DNA from: an uncultured Burkholderiales bacterium
GTDB taxonomy: Bacteria > Pseudomonadota > Gammaproteobacteria > Burkholderiales > Burkholderiaceae_C
Length of the DNA: 64,000 nt
Assembly: GCA_903844825.1 (NCBI GenBank)
Contig: CAIMVC010000409.1
Span: 1-64,000 of the forward strand
Direction of reading: 5' to 3'
The notes beneath the pieces are model-generated. The model was not told the origin of the DNA and searched no databases. It saw only the letters and a list, made by a program, of their open reading frames with translations. Both the position numbers and the translations under genes were made by a program. Shown here piece by piece: positions 9,141-36,484 of the stretch. How positions within the stretch are numbered: position 1 is the stretch's first letter; every line of letters begins with the position of its first letter.

Positions 9141-9530
9141 TCAGTCCGCAGGCATAGCAAAGGACCGCCGGCGCAAGCCGATGTACGCCGTCTGCAGGGC
9201 ATCGGTTTGAGCACCACCCTGTGCCAGCGCCACCAGATGCATCGTGGCTTGCGGGTGGGTGACCAGGCACCAGTTGACGATGGGCGCGGCCAGGTAGCGG
9301 CTGTGCTCGGTCAGGCATTCGAGCGCCACACTGGCCTGAAACGGCGTGCCGGCACGGGCACTGAAGCCGGGCGAGGGCAAGGGTTCGAGCCACAGGGTCA
9401 GCAGCCCATCGTCGATGTCTGGCTTGACCAGGCGAACATGCTTGATGAGCCCGCCTTCGCGGTAAATCGCCTCTTGCCCGACGAGCGCCTGCAGGTGTGC
9501 GAGCAGCCGGGCGGCGGGCTTGGCTTTCAT
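9141..9530 (-). CDS. Uncharacterised small protein coupled to the DUF4062-STAND NTPase
   Basis: Start reassigned to MKAKPAARLLAHLQALVGQEAIYREGGLIKHV...; ATGA overlap with stop of the upstream gene (9527). Confidence 0.6.
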   Translation of the reverse strand: MKAKPAARLLAHLQALVGQEAIYREGGLIKHVRLVKPDIDDGLLTLWLEPLPSPGFSARAGTPFQASVALECLTEHSRYLAAPIVNWCLVTHPQATMHLVALAQGGAQTDALQTAYIGLRRRSFAMPAD

Positions 9531-12500
9531 GCGCCACCTCTGCCGGGTGGTCGGCGAGGGGGTCGCCCGGATGGTCGGCGGGCTGGCGCGGCGGGGGTCG
9601 CGCCCACGGCCAGTTGCAGAGCTGCCAGCGCACGGCTGTTGACCTCGCGCTGCTCCGCACGGTCTTCGCTGATGTCGTCGATGGTCGACAAGATGCGCTG
9701 CACGCGCTCGCGGGCAGCAAGGGCTGCTGCGAGCTCGCCCACCAGTTCGCGCACCGCCGCCACGACCACGAGAATATTGACCAGCTGCACGGCCTCCACG
9801 CCGTACTGTCCTTCGGCCAGGCGCAGGCACTTTTCGTACACGGGCAGCGCCGCCCCGGCGCTGACATGCTTTTCGAGCAAATCGCCTAAACGGTAGAGCA
9901 ACTGGCAGTGCTCGCCAGTATCAAAGTCGGCGGTGGCCTCGGCGATCGCCAACGCCTCCCGGTAGGCCGTCTGGGCGGCATCAACATCGCCGGCGCCGAT
10001 TTCAACATCGGCCAGGCTGCTCAGCTGCGCGATAAGCTTGGGGCTTTGCGGGCCGTCGGTGGCGACCAGCTGCGCCAGCGACCGTTGCAGCACCTCACGC
10101 GCCTGCGCGTAGTCGCCGCGCGACTCATGAATCCAGCTGAGCATCAGACACACGTCGGGCAAGGTGGTGACCGGCGCGCCCGTCAGGCCTGACTGCAGGC
10201 GCAGGCATTCCTGCAACCAGCGCAAGGCCTGCTCGTCATCGCCCTGGTCGTAGTAAAAACGCCCCAGGCCGAACTTGTTGGCCAGTACGTGGTAGTGGGT
10301 TGAAGGCAACAAGCGCTCGACCATGCTGTGGGCTTCGAGCAGGAGCTGCTCGCCAGTTTCGTTGTCGCCTTCCTCGTGGGTGAGCCAGCCCAACTGACCG
10401 ACGGCGCTCATGGTGAACATGTGGTCACCCAGCACCTGGCGCGCCACCGCGTAGCCCTCTTCCAGCAGCGTCCGGCGGGCGCTGGCCTCTTCAGTGACGG
10501 CGGCCAGGTTCAGCAAGGCGCGCACCGTTTCGCGGTGCTGGTTGCCGAGCACCGTGCGCGCAATGCGCAGTGCCTCGGTCTGCAGGCTCAGTGCCAGCGC
10601 GCCCTGCCCTTGCTGCTGGCGCAGCAAGCCCAGATTGCCCAGTGGCAGCAAAATATCGACGCAGCGTCGGCCCAAAATAGCGTCGTACATATCAATGGAT
10701 AACTGGTACTGGCGCGCTGCCTCCTCCAGATTGCCCGAACGCTCCAGCGCCGTGGCGTGGTTGGCCAGAAAAAGTGCCACCTCCGGACAGGCTTGCCCGA
10801 GCACCCGTCGGGCGGCGGCGAGGTTCTCGCCATGCACGGCCAGCGCCTGGTCATAGCGGCCGATTTCCGAATGCGCGTTGGCCAGGTTGTTGGCCACCAA
10901 AAAGCTCAGGCGGTGGGTCGGGCCCAGAGTGGCGCGGCGAAACGCCAGCACCGCCTCGAAACTAGGCAGGGATTCCTCAAAATGACCCAGGTAGTAGGTG
11001 TTGACGGCCACGTCGTTGAGTGCGTCGAAGTAAATCGCGGCTTTTTCACCCCGACCCGAGGCGACTCTGGGGTAGGCATCGAGCACACGCTGGTGCTGCG
11101 CCACGGCCGCGGCATAGCGGGACTGCCCCGTGAGGATTTTCCCCAGGATGTTGCGCGCCTTGTGCGTGGCCACATGGCGCTCACCGTGGTGCGCCACCAG
11201 CATCGCCACGCTGCGGCTGGCCAGCTTGAAAGCGGCGGCATAGTGGCTGACAAACAGCAGCAGATTGGCCAGATCGAGCGTGAGTTGGGCGCTGGCAGGA
11301 TCGTTGGCTGGCAAGTCCCAACGCCGCCAGGCGCGCAGACAGGTCTGCGGCATGTTGACACCGGCGTGTTGCTCAAGCTGGCGCCAGTAGGGCTGCATCT
11401 CGGCCGCGCCGCCGCGCTTGCCAAACGCGGCAAACACCGCGGCATCGCTAAGGCAGGCCTTGAGCGAGCGCCAATCGCGCGCCGCCAGCCATTGCCAAGG
11501 CTCTTCCTCGGCACGTCGGGCATCGGCCGAGGCAGCGCGAAACCAGCGTCCCAGCACCCGGTGGGCGTCGGCGCGCTGCCGCTCTTGCGGCATGTAGCGC
11601 GCAGCGACTGCCGCGCGCATGTAGTCGTGCGCGAAGGTGATGCGCCCATTGGACTCGAGCAAAGCTTCGTCCAGCGCATCGCGGATCGGTGCCCAGGTGG
11701 CCGGCACCAGATCGGCAACGCCCAAGATTTCTTTTTCGCTCAAGCCCGACCGGCTCGCCCAAATCGCCGTCATGGCGGTTTTGACAGCGGCCTGGCCGCA
11801 GTCGCCCTCGACGCGCTCGAGCACGCGAGCAAACAAATCGTCGACGCCGTGGCTGCCGAGGTAATGCGCCAGCACCGATTGCAGGGCTTCATGCACACCG
11901 AAGAGCCGCAGTTCCTCGGCCAGCGTGCGAACAAACAGCGGGTTGCTGGCCAGGGGATGCGCCAGAATCTGCCGCAGCAACGGTGCCGCCAAGGTCTTGT
12001 TGTAGCGCGCCAGGTAGGTCACCAGCAGCGTCTTGCGCTCAGGCTTCGTCAAGGGCTTGACCTCTAGCGTCTGCCAGGGCGCGCCGCTGGTCTTGGCCTT
12101 CAAGCTGTCGCAGATCGCACCCTCCAGGCAGGAGACCACAAAGTGCACGCGCTCTGGCAAAAACGCCGGAAACCAGCGCAGATCCTGCAACTGCGTCAGG
12201 CTGTTGAGCGCGTCCAGCGCGAAAATCCAGCGCGTCTTTTTCCGCCCCGCCCAGGCACTGGCCGTGGCCAGCCAGACCGGCAGGCTGTCGATGAGTTTTT
12301 GCGACTCACCCGCAATCTCCTCGGTGCTGCCCGTGCTGCGCGCAATGAACTCGATCAGGCGCCTGAGCAGGGCGTGCAGATCGGCCGCATCCGCGCTGGC
12401 GCCCAGGTAGTGCTCGTGCACCAGGTCGCGCGGATGGGCGCGGCGATGCGCCTGCAAGGCATTGGCCAGCAGCGCACTCTTGCCGCCGCCACTGGCGCCG

Positions 12501-13285
12501 CCTATCAAGAGGCGCGGCTGACCCTGGTCCAGTGCGCGCGCCAGCCAGGCCTGGTAACGCTCGCCGCCCAAATACAGGCGCCGCCGCGGTGCCGCATAGG
12601 CTTCGTGCTTGAGCCGCTCGCGCTCGAAGGCGTCGGGCACCGAGTCGGGCGGAAAGGCTGCGTCCAGCAGCGCCCACAGGTCTTTTTCGAGGCGCTTGGC
12701 CAGCGCCTCGGGGTCGCGGTAGTTGACCACCGGGTAAGCGCTGGCGCGAATGCGCCGCTTGAGTTCGTCCTGCCGGGCCCGGTCCTCGGCCGAGGCAGGC
12801 ACATAGTCGCCGCCCTTGGTGCCGGCGTAGGCCCGTGAGCGCAGGTAGAAAAAGGCCCGCCCGACCATTTTTTTGTTGTTCAGCACCCCATGCAAAATTT
12901 CGAGCTCGGTAACGCTCTTGCCGCCTTGATGCTTTTTGAGCCAGGGCTGGCGCTCGACCAGGTCAGATGCAAAACCGTCGGCCGGCGGAATCCAGCCGTA
13001 GCGCTCGCCCAGCATGCCGATGAAGTAGGGACGGGCCCGGTCGATTTCACTCAGGCAAATCGGCAACACCTCGCCGCGCTCGGCCTGCTCGACCGTGATA
13101 CCCCAGCGCAGGTCCACATCCACCAGTTCGACAAAGCGGTCCTTCAAGCGGGCACGCAGCGCCGGGAACACCTTGCGCACCAGCAAGTCGCGCTCTTCAC
13201 CAAAGTCCCTGAAGGTGCTGGAGAGAAAAATGCGGACGGTGCGGCTGGCCGGCAGCGCCCGCTGGGATGCGGATTTTCCAGGCAT
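9527..13285 (-). CDS. DUF4062 domain STAND-type NTPase with C-terminal TPR repeats
   Basis: N-term RTVRIFLSSTFRDFGEERDLLVRKVFPALR...DVDLRWGIT (DUF4062-like); Walker A LLIGGASGGGKSALLAN; C-terminal half repeated TPR-like (e.g. LGPTHRLSFLVANNLANAHSEIGRYDQALAVHGENLAAARRVLGQ). Confidence 0.88.
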   Translation of the reverse strand: MPGKSASQRALPASRTVRIFLSSTFRDFGEERDLLVRKVFPALRARLKDRFVELVDVDLRWGITVEQAERGEVLPICLSEIDRARPYFIGMLGERYGWIPPADGFASDLVERQPWLKKHQGGKSVTELEILHGVLNNKKMVGRAFFYLRSRAYAGTKGGDYVPASAEDRARQDELKRRIRASAYPVVNYRDPEALAKRLEKDLWALLDAAFPPDSVPDAFERERLKHEAYAAPRRRLYLGGERYQAWLARALDQGQPRLLIGGASGGGKSALLANALQAHRRAHPRDLVHEHYLGASADAADLHALLRRLIEFIARSTGSTEEIAGESQKLIDSLPVWLATASAWAGRKKTRWIFALDALNSLTQLQDLRWFPAFLPERVHFVVSCLEGAICDSLKAKTSGAPWQTLEVKPLTKPERKTLLVTYLARYNKTLAAPLLRQILAHPLASNPLFVRTLAEELRLFGVHEALQSVLAHYLGSHGVDDLFARVLERVEGDCGQAAVKTAMTAIWASRSGLSEKEILGVADLVPATWAPIRDALDEALLESNGRITFAHDYMRAAVAARYMPQERQRADAHRVLGRWFRAASADARRAEEEPWQWLAARDWRSLKACLSDAAVFAAFGKRGGAAEMQPYWRQLEQHAGVNMPQTCLRAWRRWDLPANDPASAQLTLDLANLLLFVSHYAAAFKLASRSVAMLVAHHGERHVATHKARNILGKILTGQSRYAAAVAQHQRVLDAYPRVASGRGEKAAIYFDALNDVAVNTYYLGHFEESLPSFEAVLAFRRATLGPTHRLSFLVANNLANAHSEIGRYDQALAVHGENLAAARRVLGQACPEVALFLANHATALERSGNLEEAARQYQLSIDMYDAILGRRCVDILLPLGNLGLLRQQQGQGALALSLQTEALRIARTVLGNQHRETVRALLNLAAVTEEASARRTLLEEGYAVARQVLGDHMFTMSAVGQLGWLTHEEGDNETGEQLLLEAHSMVERLLPSTHYHVLANKFGLGRFYYDQGDDEQALRWLQECLRLQSGLTGAPVTTLPDVCLMLSWIHESRGDYAQAREVLQRSLAQLVATDGPQSPKLIAQLSSLADVEIGAGDVDAAQTAYREALAIAEATADFDTGEHCQLLYRLGDLLEKHVSAGAALPVYEKCLRLAEGQYGVEAVQLVNILVVVAAVRELVGELAAALAARERVQRILSTIDDISEDRAEQREVNSRALAALQLAVGATPAAPARRPSGRPPRRPPGRGGA

Positions 13286-13331
13286 GACTGATTTCAATCT
13301 TTGGGAGCTTGGCCGATGCAAAAAGTTCAGG

Positions 13332-14129
13332 TCAGAAACGAAGGCCGGCGGCAATTCGCGTCTGGTTGTCCTGACTGAAGTTCACTTTCAAATCGCGACC
13401 GGCCCGCACGAAGTAGCGGTCAAAGTCGTAGGTCACGACCAGCGATGTGCCGTGAACTTTGCTGGCGTCCGGTGCTTCCCGACCGTGCTTGTAAGCCAGG
13501 TCCACGGTCAGCCGACGTTTATCTTCCAGGCTCTGGCGCCAGACCAGGTGGGTGATGCGCTGGCCGAGGCCAAGACGGTAGGTTTGTGTGGTGAATGCCG
13601 ACAGCACGGCACCCGACATGGCCTTGGTGCCAACGCCCAGGGTGATCGCGTTGTTGGGGTCGAAGTTGAGGTTGTAATAGTCTTTGTCGTTGGTCCTGTC
13701 GATGCCCCAGATCAGGTAGTTCGTGCTACCGACCTGGCCGGACAGCGCGCCACTGACAAAGCCCCCGGACGCGATTTGCAGCGAAGGCGTCAACTGGCCC
13801 CAGGCGGTGGCTATCGTGTGTTCGTAGCCGGCCCGGGTTTGCTGGTAGATCGACGGGTTCCAGTAGTGGCCGATCCAGATCACCTGATCGTCTTTGTTGA
13901 GCCGCAAGTTGGCGTCCTGCGCATAGTGGCTGTCGGCCATGCTGTAAAAACCGTGGGTGTACTTGTAGCCCCAGGCCTCTTGCGCCAGGGCAGTTCCCCC
14001 CGCGCCGCCCAGCAGCAGGGCCAGCAGGCTTGCTCGGGGCAGTGACTTCATTGACTTCATTGACTTCGTTGACTTCGTTGACTTCACTGAATTCATTAAC
14101 GTGGTCAGTGGCATAAAAACTCCTTGCAA
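13332..14129 (-). CDS. Putative secreted/outer-membrane beta-barrel protein
   Basis: Signal peptide LPRASLLALLLGGAGGTALAQ; alternating aromatic/polar strands ending with ...NQTRIAAGLRF (C-terminal Phe). Confidence 0.6.
   Translation of the reverse strand: MQGVFMPLTTLMNSVKSTKSTKSMKSMKSLPRASLLALLLGGAGGTALAQEAWGYKYTHGFYSMADSHYAQDANLRLNKDDQVIWIGHYWNPSIYQQTRAGYEHTIATAWGQLTPSLQIASGGFVSGALSGQVGSTNYLIWGIDRTNDKDYYNLNFDPNNAITLGVGTKAMSGAVLSAFTTQTYRLGLGQRITHLVWRQSLEDKRRLTVDLAYKHGREAPDASKVHGTSLVVTYDFDRYFVRAGRDLKVNFSQDNQTRIAAGLRF
14042..14088. repeat. 9-bp tandem repeat TTGACTTC(A/G) in the signal-peptide n-region of the OMP gene
   Basis: gacttcattgacttcattgacttcgttgacttcgttgacttcac; encodes SxK triplets. 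Confidence 0.9.
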
Positions 14130-15873: not shown

Positions 15874-17712
15874 TCAGCCAGGCTGGCCGGACGCTGAACG
15901 GGTGATCACCAAGCCTTCGGTGCCCAGGATCTCCACCATCTGCAGGACGGAGTCACGGTCGAGCTGTTTGATCGGCTCGGTCAAGTCGTCGTAGGGCACC
16001 AGGTTCGGGTGCAGCTTGCGCTTGTTGTCGCGAACGGGATCGTATTTCCAGCCGTCCAACGAGCGATCGGCCGCCCAGCGGTCATGCTCCATTCGCGCCA
16101 GCATTTCCAGCTCGTCCGGGCTCAGGACGGTGGGCTCGCTGCCTTCGCCCCGCGCCACGATACGGCAACCCACGGCGCGCATCTTGACCTCGAAATGATC
16201 GGCCGTGATGCGGTTGGCGTCGCGCGCGGTCTCGGGCAAATCGGCCCAGGGCAGGTTAAAGGGCATAGGCTGGCGGCCCGGGTTCTTCTCGCACTCGAGC
16301 CGGTCCTTGGTGCAGTAACCTTCATGAAACTGGCGTGCGCGCGAGTCGTCAACGTCAGACATCAAGCTGCCAGCGCCATCGCCCGCCTGGCGAGGCCGGC
16401 CCGCGCTGCCACCCACCAGCGAGAAGAGGTAAAAGTGACCCTGGTGCCGGCCGTGCGCCGCGTAGTCCGACAGCACGCAGCCGCCGGGCGGGTCGAGCGC
16501 CACCACATCTGCCACGCGGCCATGACCTTCGCTTTCACGGCCCTGCATCCGGGTCAGCAACAGGCGGGCAATGCGCAAGTTGGCGATTTCATCCCGGGTG
16601 CAGACGTAGGCAATCGTCACCGGCCGCTCATCGAACAACCAGCGATCAAGGTCGTCCGTGCTGACGTCCTCGATCTTGAGTTCCTGCGTCTCGACGCTCA
16701 GCAAGGACTCCAGATGCGGATAGGCTTCGAGCACCTGCCGCCACTGCTGCTTGACATTGCGGTCAATCACCGTGGCCTTGGGTTTCTTGCCACTGCGGTA
16801 GTGACCGATACGCGCCAGCTGCAACAGGATCGACTGCCCGACCGAGCCCAGCCCCACCAGCAGCACGTGCACGCCGTCTTCGTCGCTGGCGGCAACCGGC
16901 GTATCGGGCGGGTAGGCCTGCATCACGCGCCGGGCAATCAGCTCGGACTCATTGAAGACGCGAATGCGGGGCAGGCTCTCGGTCTCGAAATAGTCTTCCA
17001 GCCGAAAGCTGCGCTTGACCGACAAGGGCTCGATCAGGCACTTGCATTCCAAACCCGGGTTGTCCAGTGAAGACGCCATGGCAGCGCGCGTCAAGGTGAT
17101 GTTGTCGCCGTAGTGGTCGCGCATGGCAATGAGCATGCTGGCGCGCCGCGCGCCGGTGGCCTGCAGCACATCGGCCATGGCCATGTCCTCGGTCAGCACG
17201 GTCACACCAGCTTCCCAGAGCTTGCTGCGCTTGCCCTCGTCAACAGACTTCAGGCTCAGCACCACGGCTTGCGTGGCGGCCATGGACAGAGCCAGATCAA
17301 TGGCCAGTGCCGCTTTGTCAACTTGCTGGCCGAGGGCGTTGCGCGGCGAACGCGCCGACTGATCTGCCGGGTTGCTGTCGGCTTTGCCCGCGACGATGAT
17401 CACGTGCGAGCGCGCCAGATAGCGGGCCGAAAAGTTGTCCCACTTGAGCCCGGCCGTGGCCATGTAAACGCGGATCGCAGCCCAGGCCAGGGTCACGTTC
17501 ACCATCAGGTGCATGCGCTTGGCCCAGCCTTCGGCCGAGTCTGAATCGGACGTTGCTGTGTTCAAGATGGCGGTCCATAAAGTCACAGCCTCGTCGCCGG
17601 GTTTGGGCCGCATTTCTTCGTTCACGGCCAGCCCGAAGGCGATGCCCGTGCACAGCACCAGCAGCAGCAAGCCCCACTTTTCAACGAACACCAGCACTCT
17701 TTTCATCAGCAT
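15874..17712 (-). CDS. Membrane protein with TrkA/RCK-like Rossmann domains and C-terminal RyR domain
   Basis: N-terminal TM helices; VHVLLVGLGSVGQSILLQLARIG Rossmann motif; C-terminal LSPDELEMLARMEHDRWAADRSLDGWKYDPVRDNKRKLHPNLVPYDDL typical of the RyR domain. Confidence 0.8.
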   Translation of the reverse strand: MLMKRVLVFVEKWGLLLLVLCTGIAFGLAVNEEMRPKPGDEAVTLWTAILNTATSDSDSAEGWAKRMHLMVNVTLAWAAIRVYMATAGLKWDNFSARYLARSHVIIVAGKADSNPADQSARSPRNALGQQVDKAALAIDLALSMAATQAVVLSLKSVDEGKRSKLWEAGVTVLTEDMAMADVLQATGARRASMLIAMRDHYGDNITLTRAAMASSLDNPGLECKCLIEPLSVKRSFRLEDYFETESLPRIRVFNESELIARRVMQAYPPDTPVAASDEDGVHVLLVGLGSVGQSILLQLARIGHYRSGKKPKATVIDRNVKQQWRQVLEAYPHLESLLSVETQELKIEDVSTDDLDRWLFDERPVTIAYVCTRDEIANLRIARLLLTRMQGRESEGHGRVADVVALDPPGGCVLSDYAAHGRHQGHFYLFSLVGGSAGRPRQAGDGAGSLMSDVDDSRARQFHEGYCTKDRLECEKNPGRQPMPFNLPWADLPETARDANRITADHFEVKMRAVGCRIVARGEGSEPTVLSPDELEMLARMEHDRWAADRSLDGWKYDPVRDNKRKLHPNLVPYDDLTEPIKQLDRDSVLQMVEILGTEGLVITRSASGQPG

Positions 17713-17760
17713 GTCTTTACTCCTTTAGGCAAGTCGCTTGCGGACTTATTCTTTGCTTCG

Positions 17761-17801
17761 TTCATAGAATCATTCATTGAATCGTTCATTGAATCGTTCA
17801 T
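17761..17801. repeat. 12-bp tandem repeat upstream of the RyR gene
   Basis: ttcatagaatca ttcattgaatcg ttcattgaatcg ttcat. Confidence 0.9.
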
Positions 17802-17848
17802 GGGCATCTTCGGTTGATCTTTGTCCGGCGCTCGTCAGGGCATTGACC

Positions 17849-18961
17849 TCAAGGCGCCGCCACGCGCGCCAGCGCCAAACCCAGCGCAGCGCCCTGCTCG
17901 TCGACCTCCGTCACGCCTTCTTCTGTCAGGCCCGCCGCCAGCCACCAGTCGCGCAGTGCCAGGCGGTCGGCCGGGGCCTGGGCTTCCGCGCGCTCGAGCT
18001 GACCCGCGCCGAAAAGCGCATCAAGCCAGGTTTTGACCGGCTCGACCGGGCAGCTCGAACGCAGCGGGCCACCGCGCAGGTAGCACCAGCCGGGCCGCCC
18101 CGGCAGGCTTTGCAGCGAGATCAGGCCGTCTGCCTGACCGGCGCTGTTGTGGCCCAGAAACTGCGTGCCGCAAGCCGCTTCAAAACGTAACTGCTGCAAC
18201 AGCTCCTGCACGCCCGCACCGCTCACGGCCTGGCTGGCCAGGTGCTCAAGGAACCAGGCACTGCCATGCAAGGCGAGCAGCCAGTGCGCCAGATTCGCCT
18301 CATTGACCGCTTGCCAGCCTGGCGGCGGCGCCAGCGGCACAAGCTCGGGCACGGGCCGTGGCTCGGCATGCTGAAGTGCCGGTCTGAAATCGTCCAGCCC
18401 CGCCAGCGGCAAGGATTGCAGGGCCGCGGGCGGCGTGAACCAGGCCGGCACCAGCCGGTAATGCACCATAGGCTCTTGCCCACCGGTCAGCCTCAGCACC
18501 CGCGTGCGGCGAAAACCGCTGGCGGCAATGACGGCCTGCGCCGGCTTGTTGGACAGGGCCGTCGCCGTGCCCAGACGCCGCACACCGCGGGTGCGCAGGG
18601 CCGCCATCATCATCAGCTGCCAGCCCTCCTGCCGCGCCTGCGCCTGCCCGCGCGTGCCGCTGGCGCTGCCGCCATGCAGACAGATCAGGCCTTCGCCGTC
18701 GAGCGACCAGTCGACCCGGATATGCCCGATGACCTGCTCGGTGTCGAGCAGGCACACGTCAAAGTAGCTGCTCAAACCATGCGCCAGGGCGGCTTCGGCC
18801 GAGGCAATCACCTGCTCGATAGCGCTCACCGGCCGGCCGAACTGGCGCTCAAAAAAGTGCGGGCTGGGCAAACGGGCATAGTCGCTGACCAGCTCGCGCA
18901 GCGGGCGGCTTCGCAGCACAAGCTTGACCCGCCTGCCTAGCAGGGCTCGGCTAGGGTTCAC
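17849..18961 (-). CDS. GNAT family N-acetyltransferase-like protein
   Basis: 370 aa; CLLDTEQVIGHIRVDW...LMMMAALRTRGVRRLGTATALSNKPAQAVIAASGFRRTRVLRL. Confidence 0.7.
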   Translation of the reverse strand: MNPSRALLGRRVKLVLRSRPLRELVSDYARLPSPHFFERQFGRPVSAIEQVIASAEAALAHGLSSYFDVCLLDTEQVIGHIRVDWSLDGEGLICLHGGSASGTRGQAQARQEGWQLMMMAALRTRGVRRLGTATALSNKPAQAVIAASGFRRTRVLRLTGGQEPMVHYRLVPAWFTPPAALQSLPLAGLDDFRPALQHAEPRPVPELVPLAPPPGWQAVNEANLAHWLLALHGSAWFLEHLASQAVSGAGVQELLQQLRFEAACGTQFLGHNSAGQADGLISLQSLPGRPGWCYLRGGPLRSSCPVEPVKTWLDALFGAGQLERAEAQAPADRLALRDWWLAAGLTEEGVTEVDEQGAALGLALARVAAP

Positions 18962-18967
18962 GCGCCT

Positions 18968-19957
18968 TCACTCCAGCCGACTTTGCAACGCCTGGGCAAT
19001 GCCGCGGGCAATGCCGATGCCGAGTTTTTCGTCGATCCAGAGCCACTGGCCATTCGCATTGCACTCCAGAAAAACATGCTCGCCAGTGGGTGTCACGATG
19101 AAGTCGAAGGCCCCATAGTGCAAGCCCAGGTCACGGCAGTAGGCGCCGATCTGCTGCGTCAGCTCAGGCGGCAGCGCCGCCACTGAGTAGTCGAGTTCCT
19201 GCCAGTTGACACGGCGCCAGTCGAGCCGCGCCTGCTGGGGACCGGACTGCGAATGGATGCGCGCGGCGTAGCTGCGGCCATCAACCCAGGTCACGCGCAG
19301 CTCGTGGTCCTTGTCGAACTTTTGCTGAAAGAAATTGATGTGGCCGCTGAGCATGTCCGGTGAGGCGGCCAGCTGTTCGCGATCGACCTCGGCGGTATAG
19401 AAGGCATGAAAAACATCGTCCGCCTCAAAGCCGGTCTCGCGAATGGCCTTGACGACCAGCGGCGAGGCCGCCGCCAGCGCCTGAATGTCGGGCGCGCTGT
19501 TGCCGTAATACGTATCGGGCACGCGCATGCCCAGGGAACGGGCCAGCTTGATTTGCAGCGGCTTGCAGGACGCCCGGTCAATGACCGAGGGCTGCGCACT
19601 GATCCACGGCCGGTCGTCCAGGTAGGCATAAAGCCAGCGCAAAAACCAGCGCGCCTCTGACGCCACCACGGTGGCGGCCTGCGGGTTGTCCTGCCACAGC
19701 GCCGGCACATCGGGCGGGGCGGGACGGCGAAAGTAGACCACGCCAACGTCCTGCCCGCGCAGCGTGCGGCCGCTGAGCTGGTCGTGCAGCAACAGTGATT
19801 CCCCCGCCGCCGTCTGGCTCAGGGAGACGGTTTGCCCGGTTAAAAGCGTTTCCGTGTTCAGACGAAAGACCTTCACGCCCCTCTCGTTGAGATGGGCGAT
19901 CACCGCCGAGGCGTGCAGGTCTTCCTGGTTGGTGATGACGAGGACGGAACGGCTCAA
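18968..19957 (-). CDS. ATP-grasp ribosomal-peptide ligase-like protein (MvdC/MvdD/SAV_5884-like)
   Basis: MSRSVLVITNQEDLHASAVIAHLNERGVKVFRLNTETLL N-terminus; KPLQIKLARSLGMRVPDTYYGNS; C-term HYGAFDFIVTPTGEHVFLECNANGQWLWIDEKLGIGIARGIAQAL. Confidence 0.85.
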   Translation of the reverse strand: MSRSVLVITNQEDLHASAVIAHLNERGVKVFRLNTETLLTGQTVSLSQTAAGESLLLHDQLSGRTLRGQDVGVVYFRRPAPPDVPALWQDNPQAATVVASEARWFLRWLYAYLDDRPWISAQPSVIDRASCKPLQIKLARSLGMRVPDTYYGNSAPDIQALAAASPLVVKAIRETGFEADDVFHAFYTAEVDREQLAASPDMLSGHINFFQQKFDKDHELRVTWVDGRSYAARIHSQSGPQQARLDWRRVNWQELDYSVAALPPELTQQIGAYCRDLGLHYGAFDFIVTPTGEHVFLECNANGQWLWIDEKLGIGIARGIAQALQSRLE

Positions 19958-19964
19958 AACCAGC

Positions 19965-20396
19965 TCAGGCCTTCAGCAAAGATTTCCAGCTCGCTTCGGC
20001 GGCGTCGTGCTGCTCGATCAAGGTCTCGATCGCCGTCACGCTTTGCGCCGTCACACCCAGTGCCTCGGCCAGGCTGGCGATGGCTGCGCGCTCTTTGGCG
20101 CCGAGGCCGTCAATGCGGCACATGCGAATGGCATCGCGCACGATGTAGGGCCCAAAAAAGGCGGCTGACTTGTTGGCCGACACCGCCGCCATGGTCAGAC
20201 TGCGGGAAGTGACCAGCGCCTCGTCCAGCACGGACGCCGACTGGCCTTGCAGCGCCAGCCAGTGACCGACGGCCAACTTCTCTGCGTCGCTCAGGCCGTC
20301 AGAGGCGCAGGCGGCCACGATGCAGGCGACATAAAGGTTCCAGTCGGTACGGGCCGACTCGTTTTTTTCGATGGGGACAAAAGTGATGAAACTCAT
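19965..20396 (-). CDS. TerB-like (tellurite-resistance family) helical protein
   Basis: Start reassigned to MSFITFVPIEKNESARTDWNLYVACIVAACASDGLSDAEKLAVGHWL...RDAIRMCRIDGLGAKERAAIASLAEALGV, two TerB-like acidic repeats; 8 nt before the ATP-grasp gene. Confidence 0.65.
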   Translation of the reverse strand: MSFITFVPIEKNESARTDWNLYVACIVAACASDGLSDAEKLAVGHWLALQGQSASVLDEALVTSRSLTMAAVSANKSAAFFGPYIVRDAIRMCRIDGLGAKERAAIASLAEALGVTAQSVTAIETLIEQHDAAEASWKSLLKA

Positions 20397-20433
20397 GCGG
20401 TTCTCCAAAATTAGGGGGCAACAGTGCTCAAGC

Positions 20434-20685
20434 TCAATAGTCGTCAGCGGCGTAGTCGCCTTCGGGGTCCTTGCCGACCATCGGCGTGCTGTGCGTGGCC
20501 TTGGTGCAGCCGGTGCGGTCGGAGCTCCCGCACTGAATGATCTCTCTCGACAGCTGCGTGACCGGGTCATAAATGATCTGGTCCTGCGGCTGGCCCTGCG
20601 GGTTGAGCATCGGCGTGGCGTGGCGCAGCAGCACCGGCATCGGCGTCATACGCGGCGTCGGGGAATGGGATTGAGCAAAAGTCAT
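20434..20685 (-). CDS. Candidate ATP-grasp-modified RiPP (graspetide) precursor peptide
   Basis: 83 aa MTFAQSHSPTPRMTPMPVLLRHATPMLNPQGQPQDQIIYDPVTQLSREIIQCGSSDRTGCTKATHSTPMVGKDPEGDYAADDY; YDPVTQ motif and Thr/Ser/Lys then Asp/Glu-rich C-terminus; immediately upstream of TerB/ATP-grasp/GNAT genes. Confidence 0.7.
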   Translation of the reverse strand: MTFAQSHSPTPRMTPMPVLLRHATPMLNPQGQPQDQIIYDPVTQLSREIIQCGSSDRTGCTKATHSTPMVGKDPEGDYAADDY

Positions 20686-20761
20686 TTCACGTCTCCAGGG
20701 CTAGGCTGTGGGTGCGAGGACGGGCACAGCGGTTTTAAAAAAATTCTAAAAATACGGGAAT

Positions 20762-20803
20762 GGCATCAGCGACAACGGCATCAGCGACAACGGCATCAGC
20801 GAA
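20762..20803. repeat. 15-bp tandem repeat upstream of the candidate RiPP precursor gene
   Basis: ggcatcagcgacaac x2 plus ggcatcagcgaa. Confidence 0.92.
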
Positions 20804-20811
20804 AAACAGCT

Positions 20812-22047
20812 TCAGTCAAAGCCAGGCGTTTCATCTGACACCACATTCAAATTAGAGACCGACGCGCCGCCCTGGTCCATGTCGATGCGCGCAATCGCGC
20901 ACCACTTGCCGCGCTGCTGCGCGCTCAAGGGGACCACGATCTGCGAGCCATCGCTGGCGGTGACCTCGACTTGCCCGTCGTAGTCACTGTAGCGGTCGCC
21001 GGAGCCGAAGATCATGGTGGCAAAGACGATGGTGGTGAATGAGTCGAGCTGGTCCACCTTGATGTTTTCCACGTTGCGACCGCCCCGGTCGCCAATGCCC
21101 GCGTCATGGTCTAGGCTGATGTCTTGGTGACGCGGCGCGCCAAAGTAAACCTGACCTTCGGTGCCGTCGGGGCGGCGGTAAAAGGCGTGCAAGTCCAAGT
21201 CAATCGGCCGGGTCCAGCGCAGCTGCACGCCCACATCCGTCAGCGGCGTGCTGCTGCCAAACTTGGCCGACTCGCCCACGGCCAGCACGGTGGAGCGCTC
21301 TGACTCCGACACACTGCCGCTGGCATCCCACTTGTCCTGCCCGAACAGCGCGCGCGTGTAGCTCGGCTCGCCGGAGGACTGCAGCGACATGACCGAAATG
21401 CTTTTACCCATTTGCGAGAGCAGCTGCGAAAAGTCCACGCTGCGCAGACCGTCGCCGCCACTGACAAACTCAAGCTCACTGCCATTGGCCTGCGACAAGG
21501 CCAGCGAGGCATCCGATTCGGGCAGCGCCGCGAACAGCTTGATGCGCCGGCGTGTGAGTTTTTCGATGAGTTCGGGAATCCGTTCGACACGGCCGGACTC
21601 CACCGCACCGGCCTCAATCGGCTCGTCCGAAAAAAGAGCAATGACGCGGCAGGTGCTGGTGATGGGCCCAAACGGCAGGTCGGCTGCCAGGTCCAGGGCC
21701 AGCAGCAGGTCCTCATTGCCTTCGGGCTTGAGGTCCGCCAGGAAGCTGCGCACACGGCCAGCGTCCGCCGTGAAGAAGGGGCCCCGGCCAGCGCCCTGAT
21801 TAGACGGCCCCGCGTAGAGGGCGGCCAGTGCATCGGCGCCGCTGGTGCCGATAAAACGGTGATCGTGCACCAGCGTGCGGCCGCGCATACCCACCGACTG
21901 GGCCAGCACACAAAACTGGACGTTGGTCACAAAACCCTGCAAGGGCGCGACCACGCGCGCCAGGTTCTCCCTGAGCGCATCAAAGCAGGGCTTCATGCTG
22001 GAGCTGGCGTCAATCACCAGGACGAGGTCCACATTTTGAGCGGGCAT
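20812..22047 (-). CDS. vWA domain protein with C-terminal TerD-like domain
   Basis: MIDAS DASSS in VDLVLVIDASSSMKP; C-term DLDLHAFYRRPDGTEGQVYFGAPRHQDISLDHDAGIGDRGGRNVENIKVDQLDSFTTIVFATMI resembles TerD. Confidence 0.8.
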   Translation of the reverse strand: MPAQNVDLVLVIDASSSMKPCFDALRENLARVVAPLQGFVTNVQFCVLAQSVGMRGRTLVHDHRFIGTSGADALAALYAGPSNQGAGRGPFFTADAGRVRSFLADLKPEGNEDLLLALDLAADLPFGPITSTCRVIALFSDEPIEAGAVESGRVERIPELIEKLTRRRIKLFAALPESDASLALSQANGSELEFVSGGDGLRSVDFSQLLSQMGKSISVMSLQSSGEPSYTRALFGQDKWDASGSVSESERSTVLAVGESAKFGSSTPLTDVGVQLRWTRPIDLDLHAFYRRPDGTEGQVYFGAPRHQDISLDHDAGIGDRGGRNVENIKVDQLDSFTTIVFATMIFGSGDRYSDYDGQVEVTASDGSQIVVPLSAQQRGKWCAIARIDMDQGGASVSNLNVVSDETPGFD

Positions 22048-22173: not shown

Positions 22174-22512
22174 ATGGATTTCCTGTGTTCCAAAGCTGCC
22201 CTGCGCCAAGGTCTGGCCGGGCTGATTGGCCTTGTTTCGCTGGCCGCCCTGGCTGACGCGCCGGCCGCTCAGGCACTGGCCCGTGACGGTAGTTGCCCTT
22301 CAGGCTACTCCAGCAGCGGCAACTACTGTGTACCGGGATCGGGGGCACGTTTTGCCCTGGCGCGCAACGGCGGATCCTGCCCCAGCGGCTACTTTTCCAG
22401 CAGCAATTACTGCGTCGCCAGTTCGGCCACATCCAAACACGCCATGCCGCGCTCGGGCTCATGCCCGAGTGGCTACTTTTCCAGCTCGGACTTCTGCGTG
22501 TCAAGCAAGTGA
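22174..22512 (+). CDS. Secreted small protein with three Cys-containing CPSGY repeats
   Basis: Signal peptide (GLAGLIGLVSLAALADAPAAQA) then GSCPSGYSSSGNYCV / GSCPSGYFSSSNYCV / GSCPSGYFSSSDFCV. Confidence 0.7.
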   Translation: MDFLCSKAALRQGLAGLIGLVSLAALADAPAAQALARDGSCPSGYSSSGNYCVPGSGARFALARNGGSCPSGYFSSSNYCVASSATSKHAMPRSGSCPSGYFSSSDFCVSSK

Positions 22513-22609
22513 AGTCGTCTTTCGATTGATCAGCGCCGAACTGCATCAGCCGTTTTTTTCCCTTTTTCTCTTTTTTCAACCTACCCCAGCAACCACCCCA
22601 GGACTGAAC

Positions 22610-23335
22610 ATGACCCAAGAATCGCTCGACAAGAAAAAAGGCATCCCCGACATCGTTTTTCTGCTGGACGCCAGCGGCAGCATGAGTGAGTGCATTCGGG
22701 CTGTGACACAGAACATCTCGACCTTAGTCGACACCCTCAGCGCCTCGGATGCCAACGGCGGCGTGCTGATCAAAGACTGGCGCATCCGGGTACTGGCCTA
22801 CCGCGACAAACAGGCCGACGGCTCCTACTGGTTCATCGACAACCCGTTCACCAGCGACATCGCCGAAGTCAAGGCGCAACTGGCCGCCATGGAAGCCAAG
22901 GGTGGCGGTGACGAGCCCGAGTCGCTGCTTGACGCCATGTACACACTGACGCAGTGGCCAGCCGCCGAAAAAGGCGCCACCCCCTCGCCCACCGGCTGGC
23001 GCCATCGCCACGATGCAGCCCGTGTGGCCGTGATCTTCACCGACGCCAGCTGCCAGCCCACCTTCAAGACGGCCGCAGGCACGGACGGCTCGGTCGACGA
23101 CCTGATCCAGGCCTACCACGCCAACAAGCTCAAAGTGGTCCTGTATGCGCCCGATGCGCCGCTGTACGCCGACCTCGCCGCCATGAACGGTCTGGAGTGG
23201 GAACCGGTGGGCAAGTTGGGCGAAAACCCGGTCCAGGCCCTGAAGGACTACACCAGCAACACCGACAATTTCCGCAAGGTGATGGAAGCGCTGGCCAAGA
23301 CTGTTTCGGCCTCGGCCGCCGTCCCCGTTTTGTAA
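22610..23335 (+). CDS. vWA domain protein
   Basis: Start at MTQESLDKKKGIPDIVFLLDASGSMSECI (MIDAS DASGS) ... VAVIFTDASCQPTF. Confidence 0.85.
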   Translation: MTQESLDKKKGIPDIVFLLDASGSMSECIRAVTQNISTLVDTLSASDANGGVLIKDWRIRVLAYRDKQADGSYWFIDNPFTSDIAEVKAQLAAMEAKGGGDEPESLLDAMYTLTQWPAAEKGATPSPTGWRHRHDAARVAVIFTDASCQPTFKTAAGTDGSVDDLIQAYHANKLKVVLYAPDAPLYADLAAMNGLEWEPVGKLGENPVQALKDYTSNTDNFRKVMEALAKTVSASAAVPVL

Positions 23336-23348
23336 GCACGCGCACGCC

Positions 23349-24719
23349 ATGCCCATCAAGTTCGGACCCGGAGAAAAAGTCAAGTCCAGCCTCGACACCT
23401 ACGTTGTTGACACGGTGCTCAGCCAGGGCGCGTTCGCGCATGCCGCCAAAGCCCAGTCAACCGCGCGCGGCGGCAAGCCGGTGTTTCTCAAGAGGTACTT
23501 CTCGCCCACGCGCGCGCTCGAATGGTATGACGGCTTCGTGGCGCACCAGCAAGAACTCAAGCGCCGCATCACCGCCACCGAAGGTCTGCGCCAGTACTGC
23601 TACGGCTTTCTTGATTTTTTCGAGGGCACCGAGGGGCGCTCCAACAAGACCTTTCACCAGGTCTTTGAGTTCGTTGAAAACGGCAAGCCGCTGACCACCT
23701 TTTTGAGCGAGCTCTCGTCCGAAGGGCCGACCTCGCACTGGGAGCAGCGGGTGACCTTTGCCCGCGTGATGATGATGGGCATCGCAGCGCTGCACGACCA
23801 GCGCATCGTGCACACCGACCTCAAGCCCGACAACCTGCTGCTCATTCCCAACCCGAGCCGGGCCGGCGCCTACCATCTCAAGCTGATCGACATGGACTGG
23901 GCGATCTTCTCGGACCGCAAAGCCCCCTGGGATGGCCTGGGCGTGGGCTATGTCGGAACGCCCGGCTACATGTCGCCCGAACACATCGAGCAAAAAGTAC
24001 CGGCCGAATGTTCAGACGTGTACACCTGCGCCATCATGCTGGCCGAGTTGCTGGCTGGAGAACATCCTTTTACCGGCAAGCGCGGCGACGACGCCGACAT
24101 GGCGCGGGCGGTCAAGGCCGGTGACTTCAAGCGTTTCAAACTGGCCAAGCCGATCGACAAGGTGAACAACCCGGCCTTTCTCGAAGCCCTGGTCAACCGT
24201 GCGATGCACCCGTCGGCCAACCAGCGCCCGACGGCCGCCGAGCTCAAACGTGCGCTGTTCGGGCTCGACGAAGCAGGCAAGACTCCCGACGCGCCCCGAC
24301 CGGCCCCAGCACCAGCACCGGCCCCAGCGCCAGCGCCAGCGCCGGCACCAGCCCCCAGGCCTGCGCCTTCGCCGACACCCGCTCCGGCACCCAAGCCCGC
24401 TGCGGCGCCGGCTCAGGTGGTCGAGCTGATGCACGACGGCAAGGTGGGGCTGCGAATCGGCATCGACACCGTGGTCGGCCGAGCCATGCTCAAGCCCCTG
24501 AGTGCCGACGCGCAGTTTTTCGATGAAAAACAGTTTCGCATTTACCGCGCTGGCAGCGGGGAGTGGATGGTCGAGCCCTTGCCCGGCACCCCAAACGAGA
24601 CCTTGCTCGACGGCCGCAAGCTGTTGGCCATGACCGCCCTGCGTCATGGCATGCGCCTGGCCGTCGGTAATTCGGCCAAAGGCATCGAAAAGTTGCCGCT
24701 CACGGTTCGCCTGACTTGA
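23349..24719 (+). CDS. Ser/Thr protein kinase with Pro/Ala-rich linker and FHA-like C-terminal domain
   Basis: IVHTDLKPDNLLLI catalytic loop, GTPGYMSPEH activation segment, (PA)n linker, C-term GLRIGIDTVVGRAMLKPLSADAQFFDEKQFRIYR...MRLAVG. Confidence 0.88.
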   Translation: MPIKFGPGEKVKSSLDTYVVDTVLSQGAFAHAAKAQSTARGGKPVFLKRYFSPTRALEWYDGFVAHQQELKRRITATEGLRQYCYGFLDFFEGTEGRSNKTFHQVFEFVENGKPLTTFLSELSSEGPTSHWEQRVTFARVMMMGIAALHDQRIVHTDLKPDNLLLIPNPSRAGAYHLKLIDMDWAIFSDRKAPWDGLGVGYVGTPGYMSPEHIEQKVPAECSDVYTCAIMLAELLAGEHPFTGKRGDDADMARAVKAGDFKRFKLAKPIDKVNNPAFLEALVNRAMHPSANQRPTAAELKRALFGLDEAGKTPDAPRPAPAPAPAPAPAPAPAPAPRPAPSPTPAPAPKPAAAPAQVVELMHDGKVGLRIGIDTVVGRAMLKPLSADAQFFDEKQFRIYRAGSGEWMVEPLPGTPNETLLDGRKLLAMTALRHGMRLAVGNSAKGIEKLPLTVRLT

Positions 24720-24730
24720 AGGACGCTGCA

Positions 24731-25990
24731 GTGACCGATCCCACCCCCAGCGGCGCTGTTGAAGCGCCACCCAACGCGAGTCAGGCCACGATGGCGCCGC
24801 CACTGCTGCCCCACGCCGACCAGGAACTGCGCCGCATTCGCAGCCAGATGCCGCAGTTGCTGGCGCTTTTCAAAAGCAAGCTGTCAGGCGGCCAGGCGCC
24901 TGGCGCTTTGCTGCGTTACGGCCAGCCGCACAAGGTGGCGCGCCTGAGCGCTGAGGAAGCCGGCGCCATCGACCAGTGGTTTTTCATTGGCGATATTCAC
25001 GGCGATTTTTTTGCCCTGCACAGCTTGCTGCGCGAAGCCGAGAGCCGCCATGCCGATGCCCGGGTACTTTTTTTGGGTGACCTGGTCGACCGCGGTGACA
25101 TGCCTTTCGAATGTCTGTTCCTGCTGCTCGACTGGGGCCAGCGGCGCCCGGGCCGCCTGGGCTGGATCGCTGGCAACCACGACACGGCTTTCTCGATCAC
25201 CGAGCAAGGCGCTTTCAAGTCACTGGTCAGCCCGGCCGAGTTGCTCGACGAACTCAACCGCGACGACCTTTTCACCGGCTTTCGGCGCGTGATGGGCGAG
25301 TTCTTTGTGACCCTGTCCCAAGGACTGCCGCGCGCCTTGCTTTTTCCGGATGGCCTGCTCGCCACCCATGGCGGCATTCCGCTGGTGGACCTGCATGCCC
25401 AGGGCGCGGCCATCGACAACGAAGCGGCTTACCTGGACTGGCTCAACAGCCCGGCCTGTCTGAAAGACTTCACCTGGACGCGCATCCACCGCCTGCCCAA
25501 GAAAGCGCCTGATCGCTATTCCACCGGGGCTCAGTACGGATTTCGTGATTTCGAGGCCTTCTGCCAGCTCAAGCCAGACTGGTTTCCGGTGGCGCGCATG
25601 GTCAACGGCCACGAACACCCCCGAGGCGGCTTCGATCCGCACGACAGCTACGTGGTCAAGCCCGCGCTGACCCTGCTGGGCCTGGGCTTTGACGAATCGC
25701 GCCCGATGCCCGCCGCCTACGCCCACTACACCGAGGCCCTGCACCTGGCGCAAGGCGTGCCCGACGCACTGCCCGCGGTGATTGCGGTGCCGGTTGCGCG
25801 CGAACAGCTTGAAATGATGTACGGCGCGCTGGCGAGCAAGCCCGCCGCTGCGCCGGCCGCAACACCAAGCCCGGCGCCAAGCCTTTCGCCAACTGCGCCA
25901 TCACCAGCGGCCACCGCGAGCGCAGCTACCGCAGCTACCGCGGCCACAGCAGTGCCCGAGCCCCAAAGCCCTGTCGTCGTCAAGGTTTGA
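24731..25990 (+). CDS. PPP-family metallophosphatase (calcineurin-like phosphoesterase)
   Basis: GDIHGD, GDLVDRG, GNHD, ATHGG, GHEH motifs in order. GTG start proposed at 24731 (upstream TTG at 24716 possible). Confidence 0.88.
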   Translation: MTDPTPSGAVEAPPNASQATMAPPLLPHADQELRRIRSQMPQLLALFKSKLSGGQAPGALLRYGQPHKVARLSAEEAGAIDQWFFIGDIHGDFFALHSLLREAESRHADARVLFLGDLVDRGDMPFECLFLLLDWGQRRPGRLGWIAGNHDTAFSITEQGAFKSLVSPAELLDELNRDDLFTGFRRVMGEFFVTLSQGLPRALLFPDGLLATHGGIPLVDLHAQGAAIDNEAAYLDWLNSPACLKDFTWTRIHRLPKKAPDRYSTGAQYGFRDFEAFCQLKPDWFPVARMVNGHEHPRGGFDPHDSYVVKPALTLLGLGFDESRPMPAAYAHYTEALHLAQGVPDALPAVIAVPVAREQLEMMYGALASKPAAAPAATPSPAPSLSPTAPSPAATASAATAATAATAVPEPQSPVVVKV

Positions 25991-33986: not shown

Positions 33987-35147
33987 ATGAGCGAATCAGT
34001 CACCACCTACGGCTCCCAACTCGACTCCGAATCCGTCACCCGGGCGCTGGAACACATCTTCAGGGCCAACCTGGCCAACGAAGAGCGCACCGCCAAAGAA
34101 GACCCCAAAGGCCAGGGCATGCGCCCGACCCCGATCTGCATCTGGGGCCTGCACGGGATTGGCAAAACTGCGGTGGTCAAGTCGTTTGCCAACGCCAACG
34201 GCTGGAAATTCAGGTACTGCGCGCCGGCCCAGTTCGAGGAAATGGGCGACCTGCACGGCCTGCCGGTGCGCAGCGATCCCAACCCGAATATCAGCGGCGA
34301 CGAGACCACCATCTACATGCCGCCCGAATGGGTGCCCAAGCCAGACGACGAGGGCCCCGGCATTTTGCTGCTCGACGACTTGAACCGGGCCGACGACCGC
34401 ATCCTGCGCGGCACCATGCAGCTGCTGCAGGAGTTCGAAATGTTCTCCTGGAAGCTGCCGCCCAAATGGCAAATCGTCTGCACCGCCAACCCGGAGGGCG
34501 GCGACTACTCGGTCAGCACCATGGACGACGCCATGCTCACGCGGATGCTGCATGTCACGATGATTTTTGACCTCAAGGCCTGGTCGCGCTGGGCCTCGGC
34601 CAACGGGGTCGATGCCCGCGGCATTGCCTTTGTGCTGACCTACCCCGAGGTGATCACCGGCAAGCGCACGACGCCGCGCACGCTGGCCCAGTTCTTCGCC
34701 CAGATCAGCTCGATTGCCGACCTGAAAAAAGAGCTCGAACTCGTCAGCATCCTGGCGAACAGTTCGCTGGACATGGTGACCGCCACCACGTTTGTGGCCT
34801 TCGTCAACGACGACCTCGAACAGCTGATCAACCCGGCCGATATTCTGGACGCGCCCAAGTGGGCACCGGTGGCCGAGCAGATCAAGAAATTGGCCAGCGG
34901 CAAGGGTGACGCCAAACGGGTCGACCGCATCGCCACGATCTGCACGCGCTTGTACCTCGAGCTGTCCGCGCCGGTCTACAAGCCCAAGGCCAAACATGCC
35001 GACAACCTGGTGGAGTTCCTGATGCACGCCGAGCTGCCCAACGATCTGCGTTTTAGCCTGCACCGCGACCTGGTGGCCCTGGGCGGCGAGATCCCGGGCA
35101 TGCTGCGTTCACCCAAGCTGGCCAAGCTCATTCTCGGGGGTATTTGA
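33987..35147 (+). CDS. MoxR-family AAA ATPase
   Basis: Walker A WGLHGIGKTAVV, Walker B GILLLDDLNRAD, IVCTANPEGGDYSVSTMDDAMLTRM. Confidence 0.88.
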   Translation: MSESVTTYGSQLDSESVTRALEHIFRANLANEERTAKEDPKGQGMRPTPICIWGLHGIGKTAVVKSFANANGWKFRYCAPAQFEEMGDLHGLPVRSDPNPNISGDETTIYMPPEWVPKPDDEGPGILLLDDLNRADDRILRGTMQLLQEFEMFSWKLPPKWQIVCTANPEGGDYSVSTMDDAMLTRMLHVTMIFDLKAWSRWASANGVDARGIAFVLTYPEVITGKRTTPRTLAQFFAQISSIADLKKELELVSILANSSLDMVTATTFVAFVNDDLEQLINPADILDAPKWAPVAEQIKKLASGKGDAKRVDRIATICTRLYLELSAPVYKPKAKHADNLVEFLMHAELPNDLRFSLHRDLVALGGEIPGMLRSPKLAKLILGGI

Positions 35148-36484
35148 TGGCGAAGGCGGCTGTCGCGGCGGCCTCGCCGCAAGACGTTTCGCAGGAGCTC
35201 AGTCGCAGCATCGTCGCCATTTTGCTCAAAGAGCCGTTCTACGGGCACTTGCTCGGTGGCGTGGTGCGGCGCATTGACGAGTCGGTGCCCACCGCCGCCG
35301 TGGCGCTGACGCCGCAGGGCTTGCAGCTGATCGTCAACCCGAATTTTTTCATGCACGAGCTCAAGCGCGACGAGCGCGTGGCTGTCATCAAGCACGAGGC
35401 CTTGCACCTGGTCTTTCGCCATTTGTACCGGCCGCTGTTTCAAAACGGCAACCAGCAGATATTCAACATTGCCGCTGACCTGGTGGTCAACCAGCATGTC
35501 GCGCCCTGGCCGCTGCCCGAGAACGCCGTCACGCTCAAACTGTTCCCCGACATGGACCTCAAGGTCAACCAGAGCCTGGAGTGGTACTACAAAAAACTGA
35601 CGGACCTGCATCGGAAAACGCAGGACCAAAAGAAAACACCGGGCAAGCCAGGCCGTCAAGGATCAAGCAAGGGCCAGCCAGACAGCGGCCAGAGCGAGTC
35701 CCCGCAAAGTGCCGAGGCGCTCGAGAAACTGATGGGCCAGGCCCTGCAGGGCGACCACAGCCTCTGGGCTTCGGCGGGCGGCGAAGGCTTTGCGCAAGGC
35801 GAGCCCGGCTCGTCCGACCCGGTGCTGACCGAGAGCCTGAGAAAAGCCCTGGAATCGGACCTGGAGCGTCACCTGTTGCGCGCGCGTGACCAGACCAACG
35901 CCAAGCGCTGGGGCGACATGCCTTTGGGCATTCGCTCGGCGCTCGACGAGATGGCCGAGCAACGCAAGCCGCAGGTGGACTGGCGGCGCACGCTGCGGCT
36001 GTTTGCCTTCAGTGGCTACCGCACCTCGATCACGGCGACCAAGCGGCGCATGTCCAAACGCTTTAACACCTTCCCCGGCATCCGCATCCAGCGCGAACAG
36101 CGCGTGGCGGTGGTCATCGACACCTCGGGCTCGATCAATGCGGCGGCGCTGGAACTTTTTTTCGGTGAAATTCACGGCATCTGGCGCACCGGCGCCGAGG
36201 TGGTCGTGATCGAGGCCGACGCCGCAGTTCAGCAAAGCTACCCCTACAAAGGCAAGCCGCCCAAAGGCGTCAAGGGCGGCGGCGGCACCTCGTTTGACCC
36301 CGCACTGCAATGGCTGACCGAACCCAGGAACGGCCGCTTTGATGCCTGCATCTACCTGACTGACGGTTATGCGCCCGAGCCCAAGGTGCGAGCCCGCTGC
36401 CCCTTGCTCTGGGTGATCACGCCCGGCGGACGCACGGGCGAGCACCTCAAGTCCGGGCGCGTGGTCTGCCTGCCCGAGCTGTAG
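35144..36484 (+). CDS. Putative metallopeptidase domain plus C-terminal vWA domain (DUF2201-like)
   Basis: VAVIKHEALHLVFRHLYR (HExxH) and C-terminal VAVVIDTSGSINAAALELFFGEI...GGGGTSFDPAL; 4-nt overlap with the MoxR gene. Confidence 0.85.
   Translation: MMAKAAVAAASPQDVSQELSRSIVAILLKEPFYGHLLGGVVRRIDESVPTAAVALTPQGLQLIVNPNFFMHELKRDERVAVIKHEALHLVFRHLYRPLFQNGNQQIFNIAADLVVNQHVAPWPLPENAVTLKLFPDMDLKVNQSLEWYYKKLTDLHRKTQDQKKTPGKPGRQGSSKGQPDSGQSESPQSAEALEKLMGQALQGDHSLWASAGGEGFAQGEPGSSDPVLTESLRKALESDLERHLLRARDQTNAKRWGDMPLGIRSALDEMAEQRKPQVDWRRTLRLFAFSGYRTSITATKRRMSKRFNTFPGIRIQREQRVAVVIDTSGSINAAALELFFGEIHGIWRTGAEVVVIEADAAVQQSYPYKGKPPKGVKGGGGTSFDPALQWLTEPRNGRFDACIYLTDGYAPEPKVRARCPLLWVITPGGRTGEHLKSGRVVCLPEL

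Follow-up and report, generated by a model that had tools for sequence, protein, structure and literature searches.

A candidate graspetide cassette with recurrent TerB-like and GNAT-like companions in an uncultured Burkholderiales bacterium

The window analyzed here is a stretch of 64,000 nucleotides from an uncultured Burkholderiales bacterium (contig CAIMVC010000409.1). A tight minus-strand run of four open reading frames (ORFs) in this window encodes, from 5' to 3', an 83-residue peptide (20434..20685), a TerB-like all-helical protein of 143 residues (19965..20396), an ATP-grasp ligase of 329 residues with a TTG start (18968..19957) and a divergent GNAT-type acyltransferase of 370 residues (17849..18961), with intergenic gaps of 37, 7 and 6 nucleotides. 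We favor a reading, to which we give a probability of roughly two in three, in which a graspetide is the product of this cassette, with the TerB-like protein as a dedicated partner and the GNAT-like protein as a tailoring enzyme; this product probably remains intracellular and feeds a surrounding signaling and conflict island. Graspetide chemistry of the cassette is itself likely. In distantly related bacteria, one branch of graspetide enzymes is repeatedly accompanied by TerB-type and divergent GNAT-type proteins. What computation showed is the order of the genes, their homology and folds, and the conservation of their linkage. The four ORFs lie on the minus strand as the original prediction described them; the TerB-like gene has its own ATG, and the 201-residue ORF listed at this place is a longer mechanical read.

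The assignment begins with the ligase. In profile searches it matched TIGR04187 over its full length (232.8 bits, E=5e-69), a score below the curated cut-off of that model, so that the protein is graspetide-synthetase-like and stands outside that curated subfamily. Scores against MvdC and MvdD were 157 and 136 bits, as compared with 21.4 bits for RimK, and the MvdD pre-ATP-grasp domain (Pfam PF21068) was found above the gathering threshold. The ligase also aligns end to end with the solved MdnB, AMdnB, CdnC and MdnC proteins; the structure files of 5ig8 and 5ig9 say ATP grasp ligase, and these two are presumably MdnB and MdnC. In an alignment with six relatives, K132, K170, R221, D246-W-R248, D285, E298 and N300 are invariant. 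By sequence comparison, then, the ligase is a full-length graspetide synthetase of the microviridin/TIGR04187 type in which the conserved residues are kept. It has about 31-35% identity to Streptomyces tgmB and its relatives. The closest ligase in samples of the genus, family and order was 35% identical, and no TerB or GNAT match was present among the family loci checked. ATP-grasp chemistry and the weak RimK similarity would also permit a RimK-like enzyme that adds amino acids to the 83-residue protein, or joins it to another protein, with no internal rings. This is very improbable, since the MvdC, MvdD and TIGR04187 scores are 6 to 11 times above that of RimK, the MvdD pre-ATP-grasp domain is present, and a Thr/Ser then Asp/Glu tail is kept across the precursors.

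The 83-residue ORF has a GGAG shortly 5' of its ATG, and its guanine plus cytosine content by codon position (0.58/0.50/0.83) is the pattern of a real gene. The predicted leader contains P17-VLL-R21 and then Y39-D-P-V-T-Q44. The predicted core, C52 to Y83, carries T58, T61, K62, T64, S66, T67 and K72 together with the acidic residues D73, E75, D77, D81 and D82. YDPx[TS]Q was found in only one of the 458 ORFs of the window, this one; it is the YDPVTQ to which the original prediction had drawn attention. Across the related ligase loci, a combined leader pattern matched 40 of the 209 small ORFs immediately 5' of a ligase, as against 12 of 6508 at other positions within these loci. Conservation of the precursor next to ATP-grasp homologues had been named beforehand as the check on which the proposal could fail, and the proposal passed it: in 37 loci of the clade to which the window ligase belongs, mostly from Bacteroidota, the gene immediately 5' of the ligase is a homologous small ORF. 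These homologues have a Pro-hydrophobic-hydrophobic leader, Y[DN]P-x-[ST]-Q or a variant of it, Thr/Ser residues and an acidic D/E..DD tail. In a 16-row alignment P17, Y39 and D81 are invariant, and D40 and T61 nearly so. Judged by these sequence features, the 83-residue ORF is a real graspetide precursor. The precursor of locus L099 (1731-1976) has YDPVTQ and CGSS..R..C as the window precursor does, the ligases being only about 30% identical; this likeness hints at a conserved Cys-containing variant of the core.

Relatives of the ligase were collected by a genome scan, from which the best 80 of at least 590 matches were kept as loci. The linkage sample consists of these 80 loci, the most similar to the window, plus search hits, and the hidden Markov models (HMMs) were seeded from inside the clade. 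In a tree of the ligases, the window groups with a Comamonadaceae metagenome-assembled genome (MAG; locus L014), and the sister group of this pair is a set mostly from Bacteroidota; the joint clade has a support of 94 in the Shimodaira-Hasegawa-like approximate likelihood ratio test (SH-aLRT). Of the 39 clade loci, 16 have a TerB-like gene next to the ligase, against none of 52 outside the clade (one-sided Fisher p=1.4e-7), a p-value which, like those that follow, is to be taken as a guide because of the choice of sample, the in-clade HMM seeds and the relatedness of the loci by descent. The iterated TerB model used for this count took in a 266-residue protein of L071, a possible drift; a non-iterated model with five seeds gave the same contrast (14/39 versus 0/52, p=1.4e-6). 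So did collapsing the ligases at 70% identity, after which TerB stood beside 13 of 28 clade ligases and beside none of 39 others (p=1.5e-6). The divergent GNAT-like gene was adjacent in 8/39 clade loci, as against 0/52 outside. The exact order of the window, precursor-TerB-ligase-GNAT, recurs in the Flavobacteriales loci L071 and L066/L096, and TerB-precursor-ligase-GNAT is found in L097, L099 and L016, where the GNAT frame of L016 and the TerB frame of L099 are short or split. The order ligase-GNAT-RyR recurs in L014, the closest relative (68, 49 and 55% identity, respectively).

TerB proteins are widespread, and their name comes from tellurite resistance. The window protein contains two D-G-x(4)-E repeats (D33..E39 and D96..E102), its family profile matches the solved TerB proteins 2jxu and 2ou3, and its structure model has a mean confidence (predicted local distance difference test, pLDDT) of 93.3. 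The sole fold match of this model in the PDB with E<0.001 is 2ou3 (COG3793; TM score 0.73). Pfam TerB was above gathering in homologues at the same position in the Bacteroidales loci L022, L048 and L036. The predicted fold and the paired acidic repeats confirm that the protein belongs to the TerB family, as had been proposed. It resembles known TerB proteins (COG3793, PF05099) in the helical fold and the two acidic repeats, but differs from them in lying inside a cassette for a ribosomally synthesized and post-translationally modified peptide rather than beside TerC, TerD or TelA, and in falling below detection by Pfam.

For the GNAT-like protein, the N-terminal half of the model, which is of moderate confidence, gave 330 PDB matches with E<0.001; the matches listed are mostly named acetyltransferases, and the runner-up is 9iy3, an iterative lasso-peptide acetyltransferase. 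The C-terminal half has a pLDDT below 50. The N-terminal half is a GNAT fold as modeled, and the homologues beside clade ligases have LHG, R, W, S-N..A and G positions in common. The proposal of a GNAT was thus borne out for the fold. Its corollary, an acetylation detectable as +42 Da, is uncertain and one possibility among others, since the protein is divergent and lacks a clean acetyl-CoA motif: RGQAQA occupies the R/Q-x-x-G-x-G/A position in the window, and the motif was not evident by eye in L014, L071 or L066. A class-wide search with the GNAT returned only the window, and a plasmid search using TerB or GNAT gave no match.

Comparison with known systems suggests how the cassette might operate. 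The microviridin enzymes MdnB/MdnC and MvdC/MvdD resemble the window ligase in their ATP-grasp fold and full-length alignment, and their clusters contain a GNAT; the P-h-h-x-R leader motif of the window (h, hydrophobic) we take to be akin to the microviridin PFFARFL. The window differs in having one ligase rather than two, a different core, a divergent GNAT and an added TerB. The tgmA/tgmB pair and ThfA/ThfB of fuscimiditide share with the window the ligase family, an adjacent small precursor gene, a leader with proline and hydrophobic residues, a Y-D-P-x-T-Q-like segment and a core with Thr followed by Asp/Glu. Relative to these pairs the window adds TerB and GNAT, and scores under the curated cut-offs. 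No methyltransferase, such as the PIMT-type enzyme of graspimiditide (fuscimiditide-type) clusters, was seen among the cassette genes or scanned neighbors. The recognition sequence of ThfA is RPFG (PMC13003496), which the PVLLR motif of the window resembles.

In the mechanism that we propose, which extends to every chemical step, to the roles of the TerB-like and GNAT-like proteins and to the biological purpose, the ligase would bind the PVLLR leader motif, phosphorylate the acidic side chains of E75, D77, D81 and D82 and join the activated acids to T58, T61, K62, T64, S66, T67 and K72, giving ester or amide rings. These would probably be nested around T61 and D81/D82, the most conserved candidates, as in fuscimiditide with its nested Thr-Asp rings T3-D22 and T7-D18 (PMC12291112). 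The TerB-like protein could act as a chaperone for the precursor or the ligase, or as an intracellular receptor of the product, and the GNAT-like protein would acylate or otherwise tailor the peptide. Graspetide synthetases that need a partner protein exist (PMC13097080). In the case of rosaritide MirC (PMC13097080), as in the window, a conserved extra protein is found beside the synthetase, but that partner is PPIase-like and not TerB-like, and dependence of the window ligase on its neighbor would be by analogy. An acetyltransferase is often present in graspetide group 7 of the same survey.

Several results weigh against this interpretation. The curated cut-offs of the two models named for the search in the original prediction were not reached: the ligase scored 232.8 against 350 bits for TIGR04187 and the precursor, matched weakly, 13.2 bits (E=0.073) against 25 for TIGR04186 (GRASP_targ), so that the cassette falls outside the formal membership of both. 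Pfam TerB gives no match to the window protein alone, and the imperfect acetyl-CoA motif described above belongs here as well. The L014 contig begins inside the ligase, which makes the precursor and TerB uncheckable there, and a search of the rest of that MAG gave no TerB. Finally, 23 of the 39 clade ligases showed no TerB next to them, some of these loci being truncated, and TerB is therefore not essential everywhere. The failure to find it beside over half of the clade ligases would suit an explanation in which the graspetide is made and TerB and GNAT are ride-along signaling or resistance genes of the island with no part in synthesis or sensing, as would the location of the cassette inside a large mixed VWA/kinase/STAND island and the tendency of conflict operons to cluster, sometimes generically (PMC7159879). 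We regard this as unlikely, because the flanking genes are unrelated in the Bacteroidota, Ignavibacteria and Proteobacteria loci where TerB and GNAT again lie near the ligase, and in the sample neither was ever beside a ligase outside the clade.

The genes around the cassette bear on where a product might act. A VWA protein of 411 residues (20812..22047, minus strand; weak Pfam VWA match) heads the same-strand run, 126 nucleotides ahead of the precursor. The similarity of its C-terminal part to a TerD-domain protein from this genus apparently falls outside the TerD domain. Just ahead of the cassette, in the gap that separates the precursor from the VWA gene, a 15-bp unit (GGCATCAGCGACAAC) is repeated in tandem about three times (20756-20802), a possible operator. 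A RyR and TrkA_N protein, membrane-anchored by the look of its sequence (15874..17712, minus strand; Pfam RyR E=5e-16), is encoded 136 nucleotides downstream of the GNAT, and the gap between them has short tandem repeats of the TTCATTGAATCG type at 17760-17802. This gene is part of the island and was not found in the Bacteroidota cassettes examined. Divergently transcribed from the cassette is a module of VWA, Ser/Thr kinase and metallophosphatase genes (22226..25990, plus strand; Pfam Pkinase and Metallophos). Its homologues stand in the same order, with 80, 70 and 58% identity, on L125, which belongs to the same MAG as L014. That MAG has two RyR/TrkA_N paralogues, one adjoining the VWA-kinase-phosphatase genes (L125 3631-5379, 60%) and one adjoining ligase-GNAT (L014 1671-3452, 55% to the window copy). 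Apart from its VWA proteins, kinase and metallophosphatase, the island has LRR proteins, two proteins of the DUF4062-STAND type, and an AAA protein paired with a VWA-like DUF2201 protein.

The locus had been called a Ter-type operon, a description that was not upheld. The draft genome (about 89% complete) yielded no TerD, no scanned window protein matched TerC, TelA or TerD, and the TerB-like gene alone is clearly Ter-related at the locus; a classical Ter operon, with TerD, TerC and TelA together, was accordingly rejected. None of the four cassette proteins was assigned to a defense system in a PADLOC search.

Microviridin pathways likewise include a GNAT, and their products are protease inhibitors that are released. 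By this precedent the product could be exported as a protease inhibitor, antibiotic or intercellular signal after being cut and exported by enzymes encoded elsewhere. We find this doubtful, since the scan of window proteins from 9.5 to 42.7 kb showed no C39 peptidase or ABC exporter, the precursor has no GG site and the GNAT is not of the ordinary acetyl-CoA type by its motif. That the scanned genes include no exporter or leader peptidase suggests instead an internal product, which would probably stay in the cell and feed the neighboring VWA-kinase-phosphatase signaling and conflict island. The modified peptide may serve as a signal, effector or toxin, as originally suggested. A more specific version, in which a cytoplasmic graspetide held or sensed by TerB sets a VWA-kinase-phosphatase stress or defense circuit, is offered tentatively, as a guess with the odds well against it; if true, TerB-fold proteins would gain a peptide ligand and graspetides an internal signaling role.

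TerB or tellurite proteins are not named in the main texts of two graspetide gene surveys (PMC8939145, PMC13097080), and no searchable paper contained both 'graspetide' and 'tellur', supplementary tables and several key papers being outside the search. We found no published report of a TerB-graspetide link in searchable papers, and an earlier mention may exist. The conserved pairing of TerB with a peptide-crosslinking enzyme in distant phyla provides a concrete candidate for a TerB ligand or partner, and marks out a branch of graspetide clusters whose two accessory proteins, one TerB-type and one a divergent GNAT, are unstudied.

Other features were noted at the window and at related loci. The two DUF4062-STAND (NACHT/AAA_16) proteins, large and of conflict type, flank the island (9527-13354 and 36520-41172, both minus strand), the first with TPR repeats. 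At 33987-36484 (plus strand) an AAA_5 ATPase gene precedes that of the DUF2201 VWA-like protein, a MoxR-VWA-like pair, and a small secreted-looking protein with three CPSGYxSSxxxC repeats (22174-22512, plus strand) is encoded beside the divergent VWA genes. Beside the ligase in the Bacteroidota loci L121 (6275-9147) and L032 (12138-13901) are a P-loop NTPase of KAP type, by the look of its sequence, and proteins with repeated beta-rich N-terminal segments; in L071 (11978-12778) such a beta-rich N-terminal segment is paired with a weak TerB match. Near Bacteroidales graspetide clusters, a small domain, VKTLKKxF..G..LRVYNGKKFADDxxTLASIR, recurs, and an OmpA-domain protein is also found (L028 3467-4150, L022 7232-8626 and L032 5426-6229).
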